This document shows positions 48,756 to 60,940 of a stretch of DNA of 64,000 nucleotides, in pieces; position 1 is the first letter of the stretch, and each line of letters opens with the position of its first letter. The notes under the pieces were generated by a model. The model was not told the origin of the DNA and did not search any database. It saw nothing but the letters and a program-made list of their open reading frames with translations. Source of the DNA: Desulfonatronum lacustre DSM 10312 (lineage in GTDB: Bacteria; Desulfobacterota; Desulfovibrionia; Desulfovibrionales; Desulfonatronaceae); the NCBI RefSeq assembly GCF_000519265.1, contig NZ_KI912608.1, forward strand, positions 2,637,313-2,701,312. The letters run 5' to 3'. A program made the position numbers and the translations under genes.

Positions 48756-50615
48756 TTATAAATCCTCCGCACTCCGGTCCATGGGCACGGCCAGGCTCAG
48801 AAATCTGTCGGATTCCGAGAACATCAATCGCTTGTCCACCATCATCCGCAAAAAGCCGTCCAGTTTGTCCGCGGCCAGGTGGGGGAGCAGGGATTGGATT
48901 TGGTTTCTGGTGCGGCTTTTTCGGCAGAAGAGGTAGATGCGGCGTGAAGCTTGGGGCAGGCGGTGGGTGTCGTGGGTTTTGTCCGGGCGGCGGAGGGTGA
49001 TGATCAGGAAGTCCGCGCCGTCCTGGTAGCCCAGGATCGGGCCGGGATTCGGCCCGCGCATGGATTGGGCGTATTCCCTGGCCCACTGTCTTGCCCGGTG
49101 CTCCACCGGTCGCCACAACCTGCGCTGCTCCCGCTTGCCGCCGACGTACCCCTGCACCATGAAGCGGAGGGTCCGGGCGATTTGAGGAGGAAACAGGACG
49201 CTCCAGCGCGGGTCGTTGCCCGTCAGGCGGATTCCGTGGCCGCGCGGATCGCGGAATACCGGGCTTCCCAGGCCCAGCCAGAAGAATACCGGACGCAGGG
49301 GCAGGTAGAGGGCGACGAATTCCATGTTGGCCAGGGTTTCTTGGACTTCTTGGGCCGTGGAGCCGGGAAAACGCATCAGCAGGTTGCCGCCGTGATGGAT
49401 GCCCAGGGCCTCACAGTGGCGCATGACCTCGATGTTGTCCAGGGCGCTGGTGCCCTTGTTCATCCTGGCCAGCAGGGCGCTGCTCAAGGCCTCGACGCCT
49501 ACCTGGACTTCGCGCATCCCGGCCCGGCGCATGGCCGCGAGCAGGGTCGGGGGCGTGTCGGCCCGGATTTCGCCGAACAGTCGGTAGTCCCTGCCGGATT
49601 CGGCCAGCGTGGTGAACAATTCCGTCGCGCCCTTGCGGGGCAGCAGGTTATCCATAAAGGAAAAGCCCAGCACCTTGTGCCGGGTGCTCAGGGCGGTGAT
49701 TTCCTCCGCGACCTTGCGCGGGGATTTGGACCGGTATCCGGTCCAGTGCCGGTTCAGGTTGCAGAACGCACAGCCCTGAGCCGGGCGGTCTGGGTCCGGC
49801 TTCTTGATCCACCAGCAACCCCTGGAGGCCTCCACCGGAAGCACGGGATGAAACTGTTTCGCCGGGCCAAGAGATTGCAGTTGGGCGAAATAGTCGTCGA
49901 AGTCCGGTATGGGCAGATCGTCCAAATCCCGGATTTGGCGGTTGAGGCCGTCCGGGAGGGGTTTTCGCGCAGCCCCTTGGTTCCGACACAGGGCGTCCGT
50001 CAGCTCGGCCAGGTCCGTTTCCCCTTCTCCCTGGGTCAGGTAATCGATCTCCGGAAACGCGGCGGTCAGGGCCACGAAGGATTCGCCGGAAAAACCGGCC
50101 CCGCCGACCACGACGGGCAGTTCCGGATATTTTCGCTTGATGCGCCGGATCAGAACCAGGGAGCAGGTCGACTGGCACAGGGAGACGCTGAACCCGGCCA
50201 GACCGAACGCGGTCCAGTCGATGTCGGCGATGAACCGGTCGCAGGCCGTGTCCAGGGCCTGGGCCAGAGCCGGCAGCCCCACGGCGCGGATGGCCGGGTT
50301 TTGCCTGCTTTCCCGCTCGAAGAGCCGCTGAATGGCCGGACCCTGGTCCGGAAAGAGCAAGGTCGCGGCCACGCTTTCCGCGACCCAGGTTCGCTCGGAA
50401 ATGACTTGATACAAGGTGTAGCCGACGGCCGCAGCCACATGAAGATGAACATGCTCCGCCCGGACCGGCACGTCGGGGAACCGGCGGCGCAGGTGGGCCT
50501 TGAGCGTGCCGAGCTGGATGGAGGGCCGGTTGTACATGGCCCAGGGCGCGGAAACGAGTATGAGCGGACGGGGGGAGATTATTCCGGCTTCAGGCTTGTG
50601 TTCGGCTGTGTGCAT
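48756..50615 (-). CDS. B12-binding radical SAM protein of the RiPP-maturation type (TIGR03975-like)
   Basis: 619 residues. N-terminal cobalamin-binding-like domain (about 15-210, with PELPVVVGGAGFSGE and DYLTQGEGETDL), then a radical SAM domain. SAM-cluster cysteines are Cys267, Cys282 and Cys285 (SRGCWW then GCAFCNLN), giving C-x14-C-x2-C instead of the usual short spacing. TGYRSKSPRKVAEEI, FMDNLLPRKGATELF and VGVEALSSALLARMNKGTSA match the rSAM_ocin_1 pattern, which modifies ribosomal peptides. No precursor peptide was found beside it. Start ATG 50615 has no strong ribosome site. It is divergent from the small membrane-protein gene. Confidence 0.75.
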   Translation of the reverse strand: MHTAEHKPEAGIISPRPLILVSAPWAMYNRPSIQLGTLKAHLRRRFPDVPVRAEHVHLHVAAAVGYTLYQVISERTWVAESVAATLLFPDQGPAIQRLFERESRQNPAIRAVGLPALAQALDTACDRFIADIDWTAFGLAGFSVSLCQSTCSLVLIRRIKRKYPELPVVVGGAGFSGESFVALTAAFPEIDYLTQGEGETDLAELTDALCRNQGAARKPLPDGLNRQIRDLDDLPIPDFDDYFAQLQSLGPAKQFHPVLPVEASRGCWWIKKPDPDRPAQGCAFCNLNRHWTGYRSKSPRKVAEEITALSTRHKVLGFSFMDNLLPRKGATELFTTLAESGRDYRLFGEIRADTPPTLLAAMRRAGMREVQVGVEALSSALLARMNKGTSALDNIEVMRHCEALGIHHGGNLLMRFPGSTAQEVQETLANMEFVALYLPLRPVFFWLGLGSPVFRDPRGHGIRLTGNDPRWSVLFPPQIARTLRFMVQGYVGGKREQRRLWRPVEHRARQWAREYAQSMRGPNPGPILGYQDGADFLIITLRRPDKTHDTHRLPQASRRIYLFCRKSRTRNQIQSLLPHLAADKLDGFLRMMVDKRLMFSESDRFLSLAVPMDRSAEDL

Positions 50616-50897: not shown

Positions 50898-51056
50898 ATG
50901 GGCATTACGGAAATCATCCCCACTTTGATCGCCAACGCGGCCAAGGAAGCCGATCTTTCCAGCGTAATCGGCGTCGGGTTCATCTTCACCTATCTGACCG
51001 TGATCGTGATCACCGCGCTTGTCCGCATCAAGCAGGGCAAGCACATGGATCACTAA
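50898..51056 (+). CDS. Small single-span membrane protein
   Basis: 52 residues: MGITEIIPTLIANAAKEADL, then one hydrophobic helix (VIGVGFIFTYLTVIVITALV) and a basic tail RIKQGKHMDH. AAAGGAG lies 8 bases before ATG 50898, one of the best ribosome sites in the window, and a terminator follows, so it looks like a real monocistronic gene. The topology is reminiscent of OadG-like gamma subunits of sodium pumps, but it is too short to assign. Divergent from the radical SAM gene. Confidence 0.7.
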   Translation: MGITEIIPTLIANAAKEADLSSVIGVGFIFTYLTVIVITALVRIKQGKHMDH

Positions 51057-51205: not shown

Positions 51206-52078
51206 ATGCAATTGCGACTCAGCTCCATGCGGCGGGAGAATTTCGCCTCGGGGCAACGTCTGGCCGTGGTACGCGGTCCGGTTTTGGAGCCGGATACGGC
51301 TTCGGGCCTGTTTCCCGGCCCGCACCTGATCGCGGAAACGCCACCGTTGCCCGGCGTGGGCGCTGTCTTGGCCCGACCCGGCGAAGCCGGGAGCCTTCGG
51401 GTGCTGGGCATGTTCCGTTGGCCGGATCCCGTTGGCGGTCTGCCGAGCCGTGAGGGCTGCTGGGTCCAGGTGTTGGAAGCGTTCCAGGTTGAGCCGGGAG
51501 CGCAATCCTGGGCCGCGACAAAATGCGGCCACAGTCTGGCCTGGATCACGCTCAGCGACAAAGGCTACGTCGGACACCGCGAGGACCGGGCCGGGCCGCT
51601 GATCGTCGAGCTGCTGGACAAACAGACCGGCGGGCCCCTGGAACTGGCCTGGGCCCAAGGCTTTCTGCTTCCTGACGAGCCCGGAAGATTGCGCGCGCTG
51701 TTCACGGAACTGGCTCTGGAACAGGGCTTCGACCTGATCGTGACCACTGGGGGCACCGGGGTCGCGCCCCGGGACACCACCCCGGAAACCACCCTCTCCG
51801 TGATCGAAAAACGCCTGCCCGGCATGGAAGCGGCCATGCTCCAGGCCGGCCTGCGCAAGACCCCGCATGCCGTGATTTCCCGAGCCGTGGTCGGTATCCT
51901 GGGCCACGCCCTGATCATCAATTTGCCGGGTTCTCCCAAGGCGGTTCGGGAGAACCTCGAAGCCCTGCTGCCCGCTCTGGACCACACCCTGGCCAAGCTC
52001 CAGGGCGATCCCTCGGACTGCGCCACGGCGCATCCTCACGACGTCTCCCCCAACAATCACCCAGTGATTCCCGAATGA
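51206..52078 (+). CDS. MogA/MoaB-type molybdopterin adenylyltransferase domain protein
   Basis: 290 residues. The C-terminal 160 or so form a MoCF_biosynth domain: AWITLSDKGYVGHREDRAGP, the pterin-binding DLIVTTGGTGVAPRDTTPE, and INLPGSPKAVRENLEALLPA. MogA adenylylates molybdopterin before metal insertion, which AOR-type enzymes need. The N-terminal 115 residues are an extra beta-rich region of unknown role, not present in E. coli MogA (about 195 residues). The stop overlaps the next start (ATGA, 52075-52078), so it is translationally coupled to the nuclease-helicase gene. Confidence 0.85.
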   Translation: MQLRLSSMRRENFASGQRLAVVRGPVLEPDTASGLFPGPHLIAETPPLPGVGAVLARPGEAGSLRVLGMFRWPDPVGGLPSREGCWVQVLEAFQVEPGAQSWAATKCGHSLAWITLSDKGYVGHREDRAGPLIVELLDKQTGGPLELAWAQGFLLPDEPGRLRALFTELALEQGFDLIVTTGGTGVAPRDTTPETTLSVIEKRLPGMEAAMLQAGLRKTPHAVISRAVVGILGHALIINLPGSPKAVRENLEALLPALDHTLAKLQGDPSDCATAHPHDVSPNNHPVIPE

Positions 52079-55000
52079 CCTCCGACCTGTTCCGCGCGGA
52101 CCTGCATATCCACTCCCGGTATTCCCGGGCCACCAGCCGCGGCCTGACGCCGAGCCACCTGGCTGCCTGGGCCCGGGTCAAGGGTCTGGACGTGGTGGCC
52201 ACCGGAGACTTCACCCATCCCGGATGGCTGCAAGACCTTGAGGAATGTCTGGAAGAGGACGATTCCGGACTGCTGGTTCCGCGGCGGGAAGCGGACCTCT
52301 CGGCGGAGATCCCCTGGCTGGAGTCCGTTGCTCCGGGTCGCGGCGCAAGCCCGGTCCGGTTCATTCTCTCCGCGGAAATCAGCACCATCTACAAACGCGC
52401 GGGCCGGGTGCGCAAGGTCCATCATCTGGTGTACGTCCCCGGTCTGGAGCAGGCCAGGGCGTTGAACGCCAAGTTGGAACAAATCGGCAATCTGGGTTCG
52501 GACGGTCGGCCCATCCTCGGGCTGGACTCGCGCCATCTCCTGGAAATGGTCCTGGAGCTGCACCCCCAGGCCTTTCTCGTCCCCGCGCATATCTGGACGC
52601 CCTGGTTTTCCCTGTTCGGTTCCAAGTCCGGCTTCGACACCATTGAGGCGTGCTACGGAGCGCTGTCCTCGGAGATTTTCGCCCTGGAGACCGGGCTGTC
52701 CTCGGATCCGGACATGAACTGGCAGTGGAGCGCCCTGGACCGCTTCCGGATGATTTCCAATTCCGACGCCCATTCCGGGGAGAAGCTGGCCCGGGAGGCC
52801 AATCTGTTTCGCGGCGAGCCGAGCTTCGAGGGCATATACAAGGCCCTACGGGGCGACGGCGGGAGCCATGCCTTCCTGGGCACGGTGGAATTCTTTCCCG
52901 AGGAGGGCAAGTATCATTTGGACGGGCATCGCAAGTGCGACGTGGTCCTGTCCCCCGGAGAAGCCATGGCCCGGGGCAACATCTGCCCGGTTTGCGGCCA
53001 GCCCCTGACCCTGGGCGTGCTGCATCGGGTAATGGAATTGGCCGACCGGGACCAGCCGCTGAAGCCGTCCAATCAGCCTGGATTTCAGTCCCTGGTGCCC
53101 TTGGTGGAGTTGATTTCGGAAATCCTGGGCAAAGGCCCGGGTACCAAGACCGTGCGCCGGGAATACGCGGCCCTGGTCTCGGCTCATGGCTCGGAGCTGG
53201 ACATTCTCGGCGAGCTGCCCCTGGACGACATGGCCCGTCGCCGCCCGGCCCTGGCCGAATCGTTGCGCCGGATGCGCCAGGGCCTCGTGCTGCGCCGATC
53301 CGGATATGACGGACATTTCGGCACGATTTCCATGTTCACGCCCCAAGAACAGCGGGAACTGCGCGGAGGCCGCGCTTTTTTCGCGACGCCGCCCGCAGAG
53401 GCTCAACCCGTGGATGCTCAACCCTCGGCTGCCGAGCCACAATCTTCCTATGGGGCCGTCCCCCCATCGCGAATCCCATCGGAGCCTTCGGACAAAGGCG
53501 CACGGCCCGAAGCCCGGATGGAGTTCAACGCGGAACAGGGCCGGGCCTTGCGGGCCGGGCCGCGGCCGGTGTTGGTCCTGGCCGGGCCGGGCACGGGCAA
53601 GACCAGGACCTTGATGGGCCGGATCGCCTATTTGTTGCAAAAAGGGGAACAGCCCCGGCGGATGCTGGTGGTCACCTTTACCCGGCGGGCGGCCAATGAA
53701 CTCCGCGAACGACTCATCGCCACTCAGGGCGAGGAAGAAGCCCTGCCCCAGGCGGACACCCTGCACGCCGCGGCCTACGAGGTCTGGACCAGGGTCCAGG
53801 GCGACGCCCCGGTGTTGCTCTCCGAGGACGCGGCCCGGCGGGTTTTCGCCGCAGCCAATCCGGAACTCGGTCCAGCCGGGGTGAAGCAGGCCTGGAACGA
53901 ACTCTCCCGTGCCAGGGAGAGCCGCGTGGTGTCCGACCGTGCCGAGGGCGCGGCGGAAAGGGCGGAACGTGCCGCCCGGTACGCCCGCCAGAAGCAGGAT
54001 TGGAACCTGGTCGACTACACGGACCTGCTGGAGTTCTGGCTGGCCCAGGCCACCGAGGAGCGCGCCCATCACCCGTATACGCACATCCTGGTGGACGAGG
54101 TGCAGGACCTTTCCCGGCTCCAGTGGGAACTGCTTCAGGCCCTCGCCCCCCAGGACGGCTCCGGGTTCTGGGCCATCGGCGACCCCCGTCAGAGCATCTA
54201 TGGTTTTCGGGGCGCGGTGGACGACATCGCCGCGACCATGCGTGCTCGCTGGCCCGATCTGGAGGTCGTCTCCCTGAGCCGAAATTACCGCTCCACGGAA
54301 AACCTGGTGCGTCTCTCAGGGAAGGTGTTTCCGGGCGAGCAAGGCCTGTTGGCCGAAAATCCGCATGCGGGGCGGATCGCCCTGTTTCAGGCCTCCAGCG
54401 CGGCCCGGGAGGCCGCCTGGATCGCCGACCAAACGCGGACGCTGTTGGGCGGGAGCGCCCATTGGGAAGCGGATCGGGGAACTCAGGGCGGCCTGAGCCC
54501 CGGAGACGTGGCGGTGCTGGTCCGGATCAAGGCCTTGATTCCGCCCATCGTTCAGGCCATGCAGCGCCTCGGGGTGCCTTGTTCCGCGCCCGAATCCGAG
54601 CCGTTCTGGAAAGAACCCAGGGTCGCCCTGCTGTTGCAGGCCGCTGCGGAACTGCTGGGGCTCGGTCGGGCGGAGGATGCGGACCAGGAAGTCCTTACAC
54701 GGCATGTTCAGGGTCACGTTCTGGAACAGGCCCTGGTGCAGGGACCCGTGGCCCTGGCGGCCCATTTGCAGGAAGTGCCGCCCTTTGATCGCCTGTTCTG
54801 GCAAAGCAAGGAATTTTTGCGTCTCAAGGAGGCCTACGCCCGGCACAAGGGCTGGGCCGGGCTGCTGACCTGGATCAACTTCCACACCGAACTGGAACTG
54901 GTCCGCGCCCGGGCCGAAACCGTCCAGGTGATGACCCTGCACGCCTCCAAGGGGCTGGAGTTCGAGGCTGTCTTTTTGCCGGCCCTGGAAGACGGTCTGT

Positions 55001-55323
55001 TGCCCATGGTGGGGCTTGGTCCGCTGGGGGGGCATCGGGACGCCGAGGAACCTCCCCAGGAAGGCGTCATTGGTCCGCTATCCAGTTTGCCATCCAGTTT
55101 TCTCGGGGATCTGGAAGAGGAGCGGCGGCTGTTCTATGTCGGGTTGACCAGGGCCAGGCAATGGCTGTTTCTCAGCCATGCGGAAAAACGCAATCTGTTC
55201 GGTCGAACCTTGCGGCTCAAGCCGTCGCGTTTCCTGGGGGACCTGCCCCGGGAAGAGATGCGATGCAGCAAGACTGTGCAGCAGGTGGTCCGGCGGGAAA
55301 AGCGGATGACGTTATTTTCTTGA
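52075..55323 (+). CDS. Endonuclease Q-like PHP domain fused to UvrD/PcrA-type helicase
   Basis: 1082 residues. Residues 1-430 are a PHP nuclease of the TIGR00375/EndoQ type: metal-binding FRADLHIHSRYS, VATGDFTHPGWL, ILSAEISTIYK, VPAHIWTPWFSLFGS and ISNSDAHSG, then a zinc-binding segment with Cys288, Cys304 and Cys307 (CPVCGQPL). A Pro/Ala-rich linker (about 440-480) leads to an SF1A helicase with Walker A GPGTGKTRT (Lys509), HILVDEVQDLS, GDPRQSIYGFRGA, TLHASKGLEFEAVF and YVGLTRAR. EndoQ nicks DNA 5' of deaminated bases; the fused helicase could unwind from the nick. Probably a DNA repair enzyme. Confidence 0.88.
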   Translation: MTSDLFRADLHIHSRYSRATSRGLTPSHLAAWARVKGLDVVATGDFTHPGWLQDLEECLEEDDSGLLVPRREADLSAEIPWLESVAPGRGASPVRFILSAEISTIYKRAGRVRKVHHLVYVPGLEQARALNAKLEQIGNLGSDGRPILGLDSRHLLEMVLELHPQAFLVPAHIWTPWFSLFGSKSGFDTIEACYGALSSEIFALETGLSSDPDMNWQWSALDRFRMISNSDAHSGEKLAREANLFRGEPSFEGIYKALRGDGGSHAFLGTVEFFPEEGKYHLDGHRKCDVVLSPGEAMARGNICPVCGQPLTLGVLHRVMELADRDQPLKPSNQPGFQSLVPLVELISEILGKGPGTKTVRREYAALVSAHGSELDILGELPLDDMARRRPALAESLRRMRQGLVLRRSGYDGHFGTISMFTPQEQRELRGGRAFFATPPAEAQPVDAQPSAAEPQSSYGAVPPSRIPSEPSDKGARPEARMEFNAEQGRALRAGPRPVLVLAGPGTGKTRTLMGRIAYLLQKGEQPRRMLVVTFTRRAANELRERLIATQGEEEALPQADTLHAAAYEVWTRVQGDAPVLLSEDAARRVFAAANPELGPAGVKQAWNELSRARESRVVSDRAEGAAERAERAARYARQKQDWNLVDYTDLLEFWLAQATEERAHHPYTHILVDEVQDLSRLQWELLQALAPQDGSGFWAIGDPRQSIYGFRGAVDDIAATMRARWPDLEVVSLSRNYRSTENLVRLSGKVFPGEQGLLAENPHAGRIALFQASSAAREAAWIADQTRTLLGGSAHWEADRGTQGGLSPGDVAVLVRIKALIPPIVQAMQRLGVPCSAPESEPFWKEPRVALLLQAAAELLGLGRAEDADQEVLTRHVQGHVLEQALVQGPVALAAHLQEVPPFDRLFWQSKEFLRLKEAYARHKGWAGLLTWINFHTELELVRARAETVQVMTLHASKGLEFEAVFLPALEDGLLPMVGLGPLGGHRDAEEPPQEGVIGPLSSLPSSFLGDLEEERRLFYVGLTRARQWLFLSHAEKRNLFGRTLRLKPSRFLGDLPREEMRCSKTVQQVVRREKRMTLFS

Positions 55324-55790: not shown

Positions 55791-56693
55791 ATGAAAACGG
55801 GCGTCTTCCCAAAAATCCCGGCCATGTCCGCTTCCGGTCTCTGTTCACGCTCCAGGCTGAAACATGCAAGAATTGCCGCCCCGTCGTTCGTCTGGCCGGC
55901 GGATGTCGCCGCGAATTGCCGGCGGCTTGAGCCGTTGGTGGACGAAGTGGGGCTGCTTTTTTTTCAATCCGAAGCCTGCCTGGCCTACACCGAACATGAC
56001 CTGCCTCCCTGGCTGGCAGAGACCGGCCTCGGGTTTCACGTCCATCTGCCCCTGGATCTGCCCTGGAACGAAGGACCGGAACGGGTCTGGGAGATCGTCT
56101 CCGGGCTGCGACGCAAGGCGGCTTTTCTCCGTCCCTGGGCCTTCGTGCTGCATCCGCCCGAGGCGCGGGCCGATTTTGCCGATCTTTCCGGACAGTCCCG
56201 GATTTGCCCGCCATCGGGAAATGGCGTAGCCTTCAGGCAAAGTTTTGACTCCCTGCGCGATTTTGTCCGACTTTGGGATCAAGAGAGGGAGCAGAGGCAG
56301 GAACACGGGAGCGGACGCCCGGAGGAACTGCTGCTGGAGAACATCCGGGAAAACGATCTGGTGGACTCGTGGTCATTGATTCAATCCTCCAACCTGGGTA
56401 TTTGCCTGGACTTGGGGCATCTGCTCGTCCACGGACAGCAAACCCACCACCTGCCGGGGATTTGGTCCCGCGTGCGCATGATGCATCTCAGCGCTCCCGG
56501 CAAGTTTGGGGCGGATGGACGGCCACGGGACGGGCATCGTTCCCTGACCGAGCTGGACCACCGCGGCCGGTCGCTGCTGGAGGAAATTCTGGGGCGGATT
56601 CGCCCGGACTGTGTCTTGATGCTGGAAGTTTTTGAACCGGAGGGGTTCATGGAATCGTTGAACATGCTCCGCGCCATGACGGGTCGCTCATGA
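55791..56693 (+). CDS. cbiR: Cobamide-remodelling phosphodiesterase CbiR (AP endonuclease-2-like TIM barrel)
   Basis: 300 residues, xylose-isomerase-like barrel. It has IAAPSFVWPADVAANCRRLE near the start, FQSEACLAYTE, FHVHLPLDLPWN with a metal-type His pair, LLLENIREND and LGICLDLGHLLVHGQ. This pattern fits CbiR, which hydrolyses cobamides so the corrinoid can be rebuilt with another lower base. The next gene, overlapping by 4 bases, is CobU, which re-activates the released cobinamide; this pairing is the main support. Starts at 55791 or ATG 55824 are both possible; neither has a clear ribosome site. A generic sugar isomerase is the alternative. Confidence 0.72.
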   Translation: MKTGVFPKIPAMSASGLCSRSRLKHARIAAPSFVWPADVAANCRRLEPLVDEVGLLFFQSEACLAYTEHDLPPWLAETGLGFHVHLPLDLPWNEGPERVWEIVSGLRRKAAFLRPWAFVLHPPEARADFADLSGQSRICPPSGNGVAFRQSFDSLRDFVRLWDQEREQRQEHGSGRPEELLLENIRENDLVDSWSLIQSSNLGICLDLGHLLVHGQQTHHLPGIWSRVRMMHLSAPGKFGADGRPRDGHRSLTELDHRGRSLLEEILGRIRPDCVLMLEVFEPEGFMESLNMLRAMTGRS

Positions 56694-57214
56694 TTACCTT
56701 GATTCTCGGAGGAGAGAAGTCCGGCAAGTCCGCCTGGGCCTTGCAGCGTCTGCTTCAGGCGGACGGTCCGCATCTGTTCGTCGGCACGGCCGCGGCCCAG
56801 GACATGGAAATGCGCCAGCGTATCCGGGAGCATCGTCGCCAGCGGCCCGCGCATCTACCGGCCCTGGAGACGAATATCGAACTGCCCGAGGCGCTGCGCC
56901 GGGAGCGGGCGGACCACGGGGCCATTTTGGTCGACAGCCTGGACTTCTGGCTGTTCGCCTGCATCCAGGCCGACCAGGAGACCCGGTTGCGAACCGAACT
57001 GCTGGACTGCTTGCAAGAGAGCGCCCTGAAAATGGTCGGGACGCGCCTGCTTTTCGTCAGTTCGGAAATCGGCCTCGGCCCGATCCAGGCCACGCCCCAG
57101 ACCCGGCACTTCGTTCGCAGCTTGGGCCTTTTAAATCAACAAATCGCGGGCCTGGCCGACGAAGTGGTTCTGATGGTCGCCGGGTTGCCGCTTTGGCTGA
57201 AAGGAACGAGTTAG
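56690..57214 (+). CDS. cobU: Bifunctional adenosylcobinamide kinase / adenosylcobinamide-phosphate guanylyltransferase
   Basis: 174 residues. P-loop GGEKSGKSAWALQ at the N-terminus, ILVDSLDFWLFA as the Walker-B-like strand, and VSSEIGLGPIQATPQTRHFV, the signature VxxExGxGxxP region of CobU. It phosphorylates adenosylcobinamide and transfers GMP for nucleotide-loop assembly. Its start overlaps the cbiR stop (ATGA). It supports salvage of incomplete or imported corrinoids. Confidence 0.92.
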   Translation: MITLILGGEKSGKSAWALQRLLQADGPHLFVGTAAAQDMEMRQRIREHRRQRPAHLPALETNIELPEALRRERADHGAILVDSLDFWLFACIQADQETRLRTELLDCLQESALKMVGTRLLFVSSEIGLGPIQATPQTRHFVRSLGLLNQQIAGLADEVVLMVAGLPLWLKGTS

Positions 57215-58222
57215 ATGGGCTACTTCCGATCCCTGGGCTCCAAGATCGACGCCCTGAACGAGCTGTGGCGCAAATCGGACCGCTGGCTGATCATGATGAA
57301 CGCTGACCCGGACGCCCTGGCCTCGGCCCAGGCGCTGCGCCGGATCATGGCCCGTAAGGTGGCCGCGGTGGACTGCGCCCAGGTCAACGAGATCTCCCGG
57401 CCGGACAACCTGACCATGATCAAGACCCTGCGCATCCCCACCCAGCGCCTGACCCCGAACCTGGCCGCGCAGTATGACCACTTCGCCCTGGTGGACTCGC
57501 AGCCTCACCATCACCCGGCATTCAAGGACTACGCCTTTTCCCTGATCATCGATCACCATCCCCTGGTTCCGGAAAATCCGGTTGAGGCGGAATTTCAGGA
57601 CATCCAGCCGGGATACGGGGCCACCAGCACCATGCTCACGGAGTATCTCCATAGACTGAAGATCCGACCGGGAGAACTGCTGGCCACGGCCCTGCTCTAC
57701 GGCATCAAGACCGACACCCAGAGTTTCGAGCGGCAGTTCTCGGACATCGACGTCCGGGCCTTTCGTTACCTGAGCAAGTTCGGCAATCTGAACCTGCTGC
57801 GCAAGATTTCCCGCAGCGAGTTCCGGCTGGACTGGCTGAAGTATTTTTCCCTGGCCTTCCGCAAACTGCGGGTGAACGGCCATTGCCTGCACGTGTTCAT
57901 GGGACGACTGGACTCCCCGGACATTCTGGTGATCCTCGGGGATTTCTTCCTGCGACTGTACGGGATTTCCTGGACCGTGACCTGCGGGGTCTGCGACGAC
58001 ACCCTGGTCCTGATCTTTCGCGGCGACGGACTGCATCGGGACATGGGCAAGCTGGCCAACAAGCTGTTCGGCGACGTGGGCTCGGCCGGAGGCCACGCGA
58101 CCATGGCCCGGGCGGAAGTTCCGCTGGCCAATATCGGCGAAAACGACCCCGAGGATTTTGTCTGGCAGCGTCTTCGTTCCGCCAAACGCGCCGTGGCCAA
58201 GCCCACGCCCAGTACATCCTGA
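57215..58222 (+). CDS. DHH-family phosphoesterase (NrnA-like)
   Basis: 335 residues. DHH motifs run in order: MNADPDALASAQAL, FALVDSQPHHH, LIIDHHPLVPE and GIKTDTQSFE; the C-terminal DHHA1 motif is GDVGSAGGHATMARAEV. Family members degrade short RNA oligonucleotides and dephosphorylate pAp. It starts directly after the cobU stop, with GGAACGAG upstream. The first DHH motif is NADPD rather than HxDPDG, so the metal site is slightly unusual at that residue. Confidence 0.88.
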   Translation: MGYFRSLGSKIDALNELWRKSDRWLIMMNADPDALASAQALRRIMARKVAAVDCAQVNEISRPDNLTMIKTLRIPTQRLTPNLAAQYDHFALVDSQPHHHPAFKDYAFSLIIDHHPLVPENPVEAEFQDIQPGYGATSTMLTEYLHRLKIRPGELLATALLYGIKTDTQSFERQFSDIDVRAFRYLSKFGNLNLLRKISRSEFRLDWLKYFSLAFRKLRVNGHCLHVFMGRLDSPDILVILGDFFLRLYGISWTVTCGVCDDTLVLIFRGDGLHRDMGKLANKLFGDVGSAGGHATMARAEVPLANIGENDPEDFVWQRLRSAKRAVAKPTPSTS

Positions 58223-58282
58223 CCGCGTTTCAACCACCGTTTGAACATCCTCCGAGTGCTCCCAAGCCCTACCCGAGACTCC

Positions 58283-60940
58283 ATGAGCCTGAAATCCCGC
58301 CTGAACCTCTCCGCGGACCCGGTGTTTCTTCTTGACGGAACCTCCTTTTTGTACCGGGCCTTTTACGCCTTTCCGGATCTGAAGCGCTCGGACGGCTTCC
58401 CGACCAACGCCCTGTTCATCGTCCTGCGCCTGCTGTTGCGCCTGCATCGCGAGGAACGACCGCGCTACGCCGGCTTTTTCCTGGACGGCCCCGGCCCCAC
58501 GTTTCGCCATGAATTGTTCACGCCTTACAAGGCCCAGCGCCCCAAGACCCCGGAAGCCCTGGTCCAACAGATCGAGCCGCTGGTCCGGGGAGTGGAGCTG
58601 TTCGGCCTGACCGTCCAGGTGTCGGAAGGGGTGGAGGCGGACGACCTGATCGCCAGCCTGTGCAGGAAGTTCAAGTCCGAATGCCCGGTGGTTGTCGTCG
58701 GTTCGGACAAGGACCTGTTGCAATGCCTGGACAAGAATGTCGTGATCTGGGACCCGGGCCTGAAAAACGAGAAGCTGGTCACCAACGAATCCTTCCGCCG
58801 GGAACACGCCATGACCCCGGAGCAGTGGCCGGACTTCCAGGCCCTGACCGGAGACAGCACGGACAACATCCCCGGCATTCCCGGCGTCGGCCCAAAGACC
58901 GCCATGGGGCTGATGCGGCGATTCCCGACCCTGGAGGCTTTGCGGGACAACGTGAACGTGCTGACGCCCAAGGAGCGCAAAAAAGTCGAACCCGAGCTGG
59001 AGCGCATTTTTACCTACCGAGAGCTGACCCGTCTGCGCACGGACCTGCATCCGGACGCCCGGCTGGAGGATTATCGTTGCCGGGAATGGGACGACGCGTC
59101 GCTGCTGGCGTTTCTGCGCGAATACGAATTTCGCTCCCTCGAACGAGAGATGGCGGCCCTGTCCGCGCCTGAAGCATCGGCATCGTCCGATCAAGGGCGA
59201 TTGCGCCAAGGAGAGTTGCTGACCTCGAAAACCCAGAAGGCGACGAAACGCTTGGCCGCGCATCGGAACCCGAAAGACGACCCTCCGGATGAACAGGCTT
59301 TGGAACGAACGGAGGTTCTGCCGAATTTTTCCGGAAAACGGGTCGGGGTGGCCGCGGACCGAGACAGTTGGCGACTGGGGCTGGAAGGGCGTGAACTCCT
59401 GTGGGGCGGCACGTCCAAGAACGTGACCAAGGATTTGGTGGACGCGTTGCGTCCGGCGGCCCTGGTCGCGGCCCATTCCTGGAAGGATTTGCTGGCCCAG
59501 GACGCGTGTTGGTCCGAAGTGCCCATGGACCGGCGCTTCGACGTCAGTCTGGCTGCCTACCTGCTCCAGCCCGAGGAGCGCGACTACAGCCTGGCGGCGC
59601 TGGTTCGCCGATATGGCCATGAGCTGGCGGATGCCGCCCAGCCCGGCGAGGAAGCGCCCGCCCTGCTGACGTTGCGGCTGGCCGAGGCCCTGGGGCGCAG
59701 CGTGGGGCAGGCCGGGTTTTCCGAGCTGATCGCCACTCTGGAGATGCCCTTGATCCCGGTGCTGGTGGACATGGAGCGGGTCGGAGTGCTGCTGGACCAG
59801 CAGGCCCTGAAAGCCTTCCTGGACGAGGTTCAGGCGGGATTGGAGCGGCTTTCCAGGTCCATTTCCCAGCGGGCCGGAGGGTCGTTCAATCTGCGTTCCA
59901 GCCAGCAGATGGCCGAGGTGCTCTTCGAGCGCCTGGGCTTGAAGACCGGACGCAAGACCCCCGGCGGCGGCAGGTCCACCAGCGTGGAGGTCCTGGAGCG
60001 GCTGGCCGGGGAGCATCCCATCGTTCCGGAGATCCTGGAGTACCGCAAACTGGAAAAGCTGCGCTCCACCTATCTTGAACCGCTGCCCAAACTGGCCGAC
60101 AAAGGCGGCAGGGTGCACACCACCTTCAACCAGTTGGCCGTGGCCACGGGGCGACTGTCCAGCAGCAGCCCCAATCTACAGAACATCCCTATCCGAGGCG
60201 ACCAGGGACGGCGGATGCGGGCCTGCTTCACCGCGCCGCCCGGCCAGGAGCTGATCAGCGCGGACTATTCCCAGATCGAGTTGCGCGTCCTGGCCCATCT
60301 TTCCGAAGATCCGCACCTGCGGGATCTCTTTGCCCGGGGAGTGGACGTCCATTCCGGTACCGCGGCCATTTTGTTCGTCAAGGAGCCGGAGCAGGTCACC
60401 GCCGAGGAGCGACGCAAGGCCAAGACCATCAATTTCGGGCTGCTCTACGGCATGGGGCCGCAAAAGTTGGGCCGGGAACTGGGCATCAACCAGCAGCAGG
60501 CCAAGGACTTCATGGCCCTGTACTTCACCCGGCTGCAAAAGGTCCGGGATTTTTACGAAGAGGTGGTGGCCAAGGCCAAGGAACAAGGGGCGGTGTTCAC
60601 CCTGGCCGGAAGGCGCCGGACCTTGCCGGACATCAACTCCCGCAACGACAATCTGGCCCAGATCGCCCGGCGCATGGCCATCAACACCGTGGTTCAGGGC
60701 TCGGCCGCGGACATCATCAAAATGGCCATGATCCGCGTTCACGGCGACGAAGCACTGCGGGCGGCCGGGGCCCGGATGATCCTTCAGGTCCACGACGAAC
60801 TGCTCCTGGAGGCCCCGGACGCGGAGAGCCAGCGGGTCGGCGAACGAGTGGCCGAGTTGATGGCTTCGGTGGTTCAGCTGGACGTGCCCCTGGTGGTGGA
60901 TTGGGGCCGGGGGGCGAACTGGGCTGTGGGGCATGGGTAA
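58283..60940 (+). CDS. polA: DNA polymerase I
   Basis: 885 residues. Residues 1-300 are the 5'-3' exonuclease (FLLDGTSFLYRAFYAFP, VEADDLIASLCRKF, LTGDSTDNIPGIPGVGPKTA). The middle domain (about 350-480) lacks the Asp-x-Glu of the proofreading site. Residues 500-885 are the polymerase: ISADYSQIELRVLAHLSED, RRKAKTINFGLLYGMGPQKL and VHDELLLEAPD. It fills gaps and removes RNA primers. ATG 58283 was chosen since the family sequence begins there; the frame extends upstream without motif support. Weak ribosome site. Confidence 0.95.
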   Translation: MSLKSRLNLSADPVFLLDGTSFLYRAFYAFPDLKRSDGFPTNALFIVLRLLLRLHREERPRYAGFFLDGPGPTFRHELFTPYKAQRPKTPEALVQQIEPLVRGVELFGLTVQVSEGVEADDLIASLCRKFKSECPVVVVGSDKDLLQCLDKNVVIWDPGLKNEKLVTNESFRREHAMTPEQWPDFQALTGDSTDNIPGIPGVGPKTAMGLMRRFPTLEALRDNVNVLTPKERKKVEPELERIFTYRELTRLRTDLHPDARLEDYRCREWDDASLLAFLREYEFRSLEREMAALSAPEASASSDQGRLRQGELLTSKTQKATKRLAAHRNPKDDPPDEQALERTEVLPNFSGKRVGVAADRDSWRLGLEGRELLWGGTSKNVTKDLVDALRPAALVAAHSWKDLLAQDACWSEVPMDRRFDVSLAAYLLQPEERDYSLAALVRRYGHELADAAQPGEEAPALLTLRLAEALGRSVGQAGFSELIATLEMPLIPVLVDMERVGVLLDQQALKAFLDEVQAGLERLSRSISQRAGGSFNLRSSQQMAEVLFERLGLKTGRKTPGGGRSTSVEVLERLAGEHPIVPEILEYRKLEKLRSTYLEPLPKLADKGGRVHTTFNQLAVATGRLSSSSPNLQNIPIRGDQGRRMRACFTAPPGQELISADYSQIELRVLAHLSEDPHLRDLFARGVDVHSGTAAILFVKEPEQVTAEERRKAKTINFGLLYGMGPQKLGRELGINQQQAKDFMALYFTRLQKVRDFYEEVVAKAKEQGAVFTLAGRRRTLPDINSRNDNLAQIARRMAINTVVQGSAADIIKMAMIRVHGDEALRAAGARMILQVHDELLLEAPDAESQRVGERVAELMASVVQLDVPLVVDWGRGANWAVGHG

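Follow-up and report, generated by a model that had tools for sequence, protein, structure and literature searches.

To our knowledge, UDG is regarded as near-universal in bacteria, and EndoQ as a mainly archaeal enzyme with few bacterial cases. EndoQ is already known, as are a homologue from Desulfovibrio (PMC4357722 and PMC4858679) and the β-clamp motifs of bacterial EndoQ homologues, which were reported in PMC4858679. The products of EndoQ are a 3'-OH and a 5'-phosphate, and the discoverers proposed downstream strand displacement or removal by a helicase (PMC4357722). H139, G169 and S171 of the Pfu enzyme serve to exclude T and A (PMC8307549). For E. coli, a helicase fused to a uracil-DNA glycosylase, Lhr, is described in PMC10953399. 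In the literature searched, we found no description of an EndoQ-helicase fusion such as the one reported here.

Domain organization of the fusion protein

The gene coding for the EndoQ-UvrD fusion is located at 52075..55323 on the + strand of the window, the whole stretch of 64,000 nucleotides that was analysed, and runs from ATG to TGA with a product of 1082 aa. The EndoQ domain (residues 1-430, 52075..53364, + strand), composed of a PHP nuclease, a zinc-binding part and a C-terminal part, is separated by a disordered linker with pLDDT <50 (residues 436-480, 53380..53514, + strand) from a SF1A helicase (residues 481-1068, 53515..55278, + strand). The initial annotation had read a complete SF1A helicase behind a PHP domain and a zinc segment, and this reading is borne out, the catalytic residues and motifs being all present.

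The EndoQ half matched the solved PfuEndoQ (5zb8) by sequence with E=1.6e-54, together with the EndoQ structure 7k30, and NCBIfam TIGR00375 with E=8e-47 and 160.3 bits, under the equivalog cut-off of 326.6, a score which places the fusion outside the equivalog group of that model and does not thereby exclude EndoQ homology; this cut-off was reached by 0 of 296 genomes of the phylum. The sequence alignment showed that the PHP metal ligands D9, H11, H13, E101, H116, H172, E205, D231 and H233 fall one-to-one on D6, H8, H10, E76, H84, H139, E167, D193 and H195 of PfuEndoQ, and that the pocket residues H139, G169 and S171 of Pfu correspond to H172, G207 and S209. Across 120 fused and 35 stand-alone sequences, both the catalytic set and the pocket show essentially no variation. 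The zinc-binding segment HxxC...CxxC (residues 285-307, 52927..52995, + strand) has its four ligands in the form H285-x2-C288 ... C304-x2-C307, the first zinc Cys of Pfu being replaced by a His that is conserved in the alignments of bacterial relatives. In the same way, the predicted structure of this half matched 5zb8 (Z 46.3, rmsd 2.6, 391 aligned) and the dU-bound EndoQ 7k30 (Z 45.3, rmsd 2.5, 389 aligned). PHP domains have varied roles, AP sites are cut well by EndoQ (PMC11354406) and the score stays below the TIGR00375 cut-off, so that the PHP half might be thought to have moved to a different task, whether as an AP endonuclease, in the cleaning of 3' ends or in the excision of ribonucleotides, with deaminated bases no longer its main substrate; with G207, S209 and every ligand retained, and with a modelled fold matching the dU complex, we consider such a drift improbable.

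The C-terminal half exhibited PF00580 and PF13361 matches above the cut-offs, with intact helicase motifs at residues 504-510 (Walker A GPGTGKT, 53584..53604, + strand), 674-675 (DE), 702-703 (GD), R739, H956/K959/G960/E962 and E1016/R1018/R1026. A set of 75 relatives spread over many phyla shows nearly all of these motifs without variation, including K509 and most of the Walker A motif, and this conservation, together with that of the EndoQ set, indicates that both activities have been selected together. The model of the helicase half matched the D. radiodurans UvrD structure 4c30 (Z 41.2, rmsd 3.9, 539 aligned). The 2B-like region, of about 100 residues, is shorter than in E. coli UvrD, with 159 residues from the motif IV region to motif V compared to 213. 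The score of the fusion falls far short of the equivalog cut-offs for uvrD, pcrA and rep, and the fused helicase shares 26% identity with the UvrD encoded in the same genome. Pairwise score comparison could not settle the origin of the helicase, because distant fused helicases score about equally against both; in the tree, the fused helicases form a group apart from 30 UvrDs with a support of 99.9, which rules out a recent capture from the resident UvrD. By analogy with the SF1A family, the fused helicase would unwind in the 3'-to-5' direction.

The fusion protein of the window ends in RMTLF (residues 1077-1081, 55303..55317, + strand), a degenerate version of QLxLF, a sliding-clamp motif that is canonical in many relatives. 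Among EndoQs, 54 of the 94 fused and 17 of the 37 stand-alone proteins had a QLxLF-type motif within 15 residues of the C-terminus, against a shuffle expectation of about 0.1. In many relatives, this C-terminal motif would hold the enzyme on the sliding clamp.

Distribution and origin of the fusion

A survey of fused versus separate genes, which the initial annotation had suggested, showed that the fusion is widespread. Of the 61 genomes of the order, which its named members indicate to be Desulfovibrionales, 58 were found to have EndoQ, with 56 single-frame fusions and 2 copies that are split or truncated at contig ends. Among the 80 nearest named loci, from about 15 phyla, 69 are fused. The fused EndoQs form a clade with a support of 95, and a single origin of the fusion agrees with both trees, that of the nuclease and that of the helicase. 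A recent or artefactual fusion is ruled out by these trees and by the 56 single-frame copies. The fusion is an ancient repair protein of many bacterial phyla.

Gene neighbourhood of the fusion

Upstream of the fusion lies a mog-like gene (51206..52078, + strand) coding for 290 aa with a MoCF_biosynth (MogA-like) domain; the ORF listed from 50786 is too long and 51206 is the likely start. The four-base overlap (ATGA) noted earlier between the two genes is real, with the mog stop at 52078. As for the coupling to a molybdopterin gene, the adjacency holds and nothing special attaches to it, mog being an ordinary operon neighbour that directly precedes the fusion in the genus and, for other families, in some of their genomes, and that lies 1.5-2 kb off or is absent elsewhere. 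Moco-dependent detoxification of base analogues is a conceivable tie to mog; a functional reason for the overlap was discarded, the adjacency being patchy outside the genus. The neighbours include mog, rSAM, cbiR, cobU and DHH genes, and in the window, all on the + strand, the fusion is followed by a cbiR-like gene for a cobamide remodeling phosphodiesterase (55791..56693), a conserved downstream neighbour, by cobU (56690..57214), by a conserved DHH-family phosphoesterase gene (57215..58222) and by polA (58241..60940), which codes for a DNA polymerase I with a 5' nuclease domain (PF00476, PF02739, PF01367). In 15 of 20 loci of the order, and likewise in the window, polA follows the fusion at a short distance on the same strand; matches of a small upstream ORF whose query was out of frame were left out of this comparison. 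In family f5 most genomes have no conserved gene order; the family has the fusion and lacks UDG.

This synteny bears on two other readings of the fusion. The first places the helicase at the replication fork, where it would track exposed single strands or clear the way while EndoQ cuts passing deaminated bases, followed by recombination or gap filling. The clamp-type motifs of many relatives suggest an association with the fork, and dU and dI in single-stranded DNA are also cut by EndoQ (PMC11354406), but cutting of single strands at a fork would cause breaks, replicative polymerases inhibit EndoQ, which has been interpreted as a guard against such breaks (PMC6202378), and the conserved partner is polA; we hold this reading to be unlikely. 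In the second, already raised in the initial annotation, the fused nuclease and UvrD-type helicase would act against phages with uracil- or modified-base DNA. For the EndoQ of Bacillus, a part in antiviral defence has been suggested (PMC8307549), and the helicase part resembles the GajB and RT-associated helicase profiles of PADLOC, although the GajB similarity is no more than that of any UvrD-like helicase. When the neighbours were scanned against PADLOC, neither a GajA partner nor any other defence gene was found, and searches of viral contigs, phages and plasmids yielded no copy of the fusion. We regard the PADLOC matches as generic helicase matches and not as a Gabija-like or other defence system. 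The fusion is near-universal in the order and chromosomal, mostly a few genes upstream of polA, so that housekeeping repair is favoured; defence against modified-base DNA is unsupported and, of all the readings weighed, the most improbable.

UDG and EndoV in the order

By family searches, on which all these absences rest, the genome of the window has no recognisable UDG or EndoV. Among the 61 genomes of the order, 7 have strong UDG matches and 3 have EndoV, compared to 271 and 132, respectively, of the 283 other genomes of the phylum. The order is thus mostly without recognisable UDG and EndoV, though UDG is near-universal and EndoV common elsewhere in the phylum, which is new; the losses may be few events, so that the genome counts are not independent. 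In 12 further genomes of the order, mostly from one genus of family f4, PF03167 was matched marginally (E 7e-6 to 8e-4) by proteins that could be divergent UDGs, and in one fairly complete genome of the order (G041) neither EndoQ nor UDG was found. The remainder of uracil handling is in place, with both a dUTPase and an enzyme of the ExoIII family present. Lhr was also considered as the missing uracil enzyme and set aside, with DEAD_assoc (Lhr-type) matches in 0 of 31 genomes of the order, a result of low weight since the E. coli control gave no match either.

From these gene contents, the fusion probably serves in the order as a stand-in for UDG and EndoV and as the main initiator of deaminated-base repair. 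It is not strictly a UDG substitute, as most fusion-bearing genomes outside the order also have UDG, and part of the work could fall to other enzymes, such as those with uracil activity of the AlkA or ExoIII type. More tentatively, with chances somewhat short of even, most of the order may have dropped UDG and EndoV and come to rely on the EndoQ-helicase for a glycosylase-free excision of uracil and hypoxanthine, which would make the fusion a widespread, overlooked bacterial repair enzyme.

Proposed mechanism

Both complete domains and their folds, the catalytic residues, the single-origin fusion, its order-wide retention, the scarcity of UDG and EndoV and the frequent polA synteny argue for the fusion as a glycosylase-independent initiator of deaminated-base repair, and we consider this role likely. 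We infer the substrate range, the direction and loading of the helicase, the order of the steps and the clamp binding. The EndoQ half would flip uracil, hypoxanthine, xanthine or an AP site out of the DNA and cut the backbone 5' of the lesion, so that a 3'-OH remains on one side of the nick and a lesion-bearing 5' end on the other. The tethered 3'-to-5' helicase would then load at the nick on the intact strand, head toward and beyond the lesion and peel the damaged strand away as a 5' flap. Pol I would extend the 3'-OH and trim the flap, and ligase would seal. The repair idea of the initial annotation stands, as does its domain reading, and its 'one-protein repair pathway' is too strong, since gap filling, flap cutting and ligation need other enzymes.

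EndoQ appears here as a broad bacterial family whose fused form brings its own helicase and coincides with a lineage mostly without UDG and EndoV. If confirmed, the fusion would offer a simple genetic setting for testing glycosylase-independent uracil repair, supply a helicase step left unspecified in the EndoQ model and provide a mesophilic nick-and-unwind enzyme for the detection of deaminated DNA.

Comparison with known systems

The Desulfovibrio EndoQ homologue of PMC4357722 and PMC4858679 very probably belongs to the same family as the fusion; the passages on it describe neither the helicase part, nor the wide distribution, nor the loss of UDG. The fusion shares with the characterised EndoQs (PfuEndoQ 5zb8/7k30, TkoEndoQ and Bacillus pumilus EndoQ) the fold, the metal ligands, the base-pocket residues and the zinc segment, with 36% identity to PfuEndoQ over 373 aligned positions, and many bacterial relatives share the clamp-type C-terminal motif. 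Characterised EndoQs have about 400-425 aa and no helicase, whereas the fusion carries the helicase in the same chain, a His for the first zinc Cys and a degenerate C-terminal motif placed after the helicase. With the SF1A helicases UvrD, PcrA and Rep (4c30, 2is4, 3pjr, 1uaa) it has in common every motif and the overall fold, but the fused helicase is a separate clade with a shorter 2B-like region and scores under the equivalog cut-offs. Gabija GajB and the defence-associated UvrD-like helicases have the same UvrD-like core, and the fusion differs from Gabija in having no adjacent GajA, a PHP nuclease in the same chain and a near-universal presence in the order. E. coli Lhr (PMC10953399) likewise joins uracil recognition to a helicase, with a glycosylase instead of an endonuclease and a helicase of another type.

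The EndoQ-UvrD fusion protein and its active sites

The open reading frame at 52075-55323 on the + strand encodes a protein of 1082 residues, in which NCBIfam and Pfam matched the EndoQ-type family TIGR00375 to the N-terminal part and the two UvrD-helicase domains, N- and C-terminal, to the remainder. In a search against solved structures, residues 8-419 matched P. furiosus EndoQ (PfuEndoQ, 5zb8; E = 1.6e-54) and residues 479-1082 matched UvrD, PcrA and Rep (E down to 6.8e-44). The AlphaFold2 model, with 75 fused relatives as input, had a mean pLDDT of 85.9 with a disordered segment at 436-480; its pTM was 0.61 and the placing of the halves relative to each other is unreliable. PfuEndoQ superposed on the first part of the model (Z 46.3; 45.3 for the dU complex) and D. 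radiodurans UvrD on the second (Z 41.2).

All the EndoQ metal ligands are present in the fusion. Among 120 fused proteins and 35 stand-alone ones, these ligands were essentially invariant, and so were the equivalents of PfuEndoQ G169 and S171, two residues that act with H139 to exclude T and A from the pocket (PMC8307549). The first cysteine of the zinc segment is replaced by a histidine, conserved among bacterial relatives. The helicase motifs are intact, nearly all of them invariant. The domain matches, fold matches and near-invariant residues bear out the initial annotation, which had read PHP metal motifs and a zinc segment ahead of a complete SF1A helicase. From the motif IV region to motif V the fusion has 159 residues, compared to 213 in E. 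coli UvrD, so its 2B-like region is small. Since 2B restrains Rep-type helicases, this small region may, by analogy, favour monomer activity.

Distribution and origin of the fusion

A survey of fused versus separate genes had been proposed with the initial annotation, and the fused form prevailed in the order and among the nearest named loci. EndoQ was present in 58 of the 61 genomes of the order, with both halves in a single reading frame in 56 and split or cut by contig ends in 2. Of the three genomes with no intact EndoQ, two were less than 55% complete, one of these carrying a degraded copy; the third was G041, a member of the order 94% complete, which gave no match to EndoQ, UDG or EndoV. 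Across the phylum, EndoQ occurred in 197 of 296 genomes, in two length classes of about 420 and about 950-1180 residues. Among the best 80 named loci of a bacterial and archaeal genome collection, which are the nearest ones and a sample tilted toward fused forms, 69 were fused, 6 were without the helicase (one of them at a contig edge), 3 were cut by contig ends and 2 had EndoQ and helicase as neighbouring frames. These last two (L116:50-3534 and L099:4992-7920) could be true splits or sequence errors. The names of the 80 loci cover about 15 phyla, many being metagenome bins with possibly wrong names; isolates include Geobacter argillaceus, Saccharothrix, Prauserella and Anaerotruncus.

In the EndoQ tree, the fused sequences all clustered together (SH-aLRT 95); a few unfused ones were nested among them, and the 30 stand-alone EndoQs included from the phylum branched outside. 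A support of 99.9 set the fused helicases apart from the phylum's UvrDs, of which 30 were included. The simplest reading of these trees is one old fusion with a few later helicase losses.

In one genus of family f3 (L170 in G014; also G022 and G030), the helicase of the fusion is far more divergent from that of the window (37-39% identity, with about 61% for EndoQ).

A QLxLF-type clamp motif lay within the last 15 residues of 11/29 order fusions, 43/65 named-genome fusions and 17/37 stand-alone EndoQs, the shuffling expectation being about 0.1 or fewer; in the window's genus it is degenerate (RMTLF and similar). Several fusions have a further copy where the EndoQ domain ends, about 660-680 residues from the C-terminus, and such a second motif was listed at the EndoQ-helicase junction in loci L085, L092, L101, L111, L124, L129, L136 and L141. 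This internal copy is probably left over from the C-terminus of EndoQ and would be expected had a helicase been added to an EndoQ that bound the clamp. The two-frame locus L116 carries clamp-type motifs both at the EndoQ domain end and at the helicase C-terminus. PMC4858679 reports that PCNA stimulates archaeal EndoQ via the EndoQ C-terminal motif, and already mentions clamp motifs in bacterial homologues, including Desulfovibrio.

Genome neighbourhood

In most families of the order, cbiR, cobU, a DHH-family phosphoesterase gene and polA come after the fusion on its own strand, an arrangement absent from most of family f5. Besides the window, 15 of the 20 order loci compared have polA at most about 4 kb downstream. 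The DHH gene (57215-58222, +), between cobU and polA, keeps its position in most families, and a putative role of its product in clearing excised oligonucleotides is possible. Directly upstream of the fusion in the window's genus is a mog-like gene, overlapping by four bases in the window. It is close upstream in some f2, f3 and f5 genomes and 1.5-2 kb off in f4 and others; among the loci compared across the order, those of f6 and most of those of f5 showed no mog near the fusion. This overlap had been thought hard to rationalise; four-base overlaps are commonplace in operons, and mog is an ordinary operon neighbour. Adjoining the cluster on the opposite strand is a gene for a RiPP maturation radical SAM C-methyltransferase (48756-50615, -; TIGR03975, above cut-off). 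Between it and mog, an ORF of 52 residues with one likely membrane helix (50898-51056, +) is conserved at the DNA level within the genus and had no match in Pfam.

Scarcity of UDG and EndoV and proposed role of the fusion

The most surprising side of the fusion is that UDG and EndoV, the usual enzymes starting deaminated-base repair, are scarce across the order. Neither a UDG-superfamily match nor an EndoV match turned up in the window's genome, which has one ExoIII-family enzyme. Of 61 order genomes, 7 had strong UDG matches (E < 1e-7), a further 12 had marginal ones and 3 had EndoV; among 283 genomes from the rest of the phylum, UDG occurred in 271 and EndoV in 132. dUTPase was present in 30 of 31 order genomes. 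Many other families have UDG alongside the fusion, which therefore probably did not originate as a UDG substitute; within the order, it may have become one.

The initial annotation had offered repair or defence against DNA with modified bases. Repair is strongly favoured; the defence reading loses ground, as no EndoQ relative was found among viral contigs, phage genomes and plasmids.

UvrD-family helicases move 3' to 5', and a helicase loading on the uncut strand at an EndoQ nick would travel in the damaged strand's 5'-to-3' direction, raising the 5' end with the lesion into a flap that Pol I could then fill behind and trim; polA here encodes polymerase and 5' nuclease domains. EndoQ incises 5' of the lesion, leaving a 3'-OH and a 5'-phosphate (PMC4357722). 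The nicking and polymerase steps are proposed by homology, and we infer the coupling of nicking to unwinding.

No description of a helicase fusion of EndoQ was found in the open-licence literature, a range missing several core EndoQ papers, and within it the helicase-fused protein is an undescribed form of a known enzyme. The discoverers of EndoQ drew pathways with a strand displacement or helicase step (PMC4357722), and the fusion provides the helicase of their proposed pathway.
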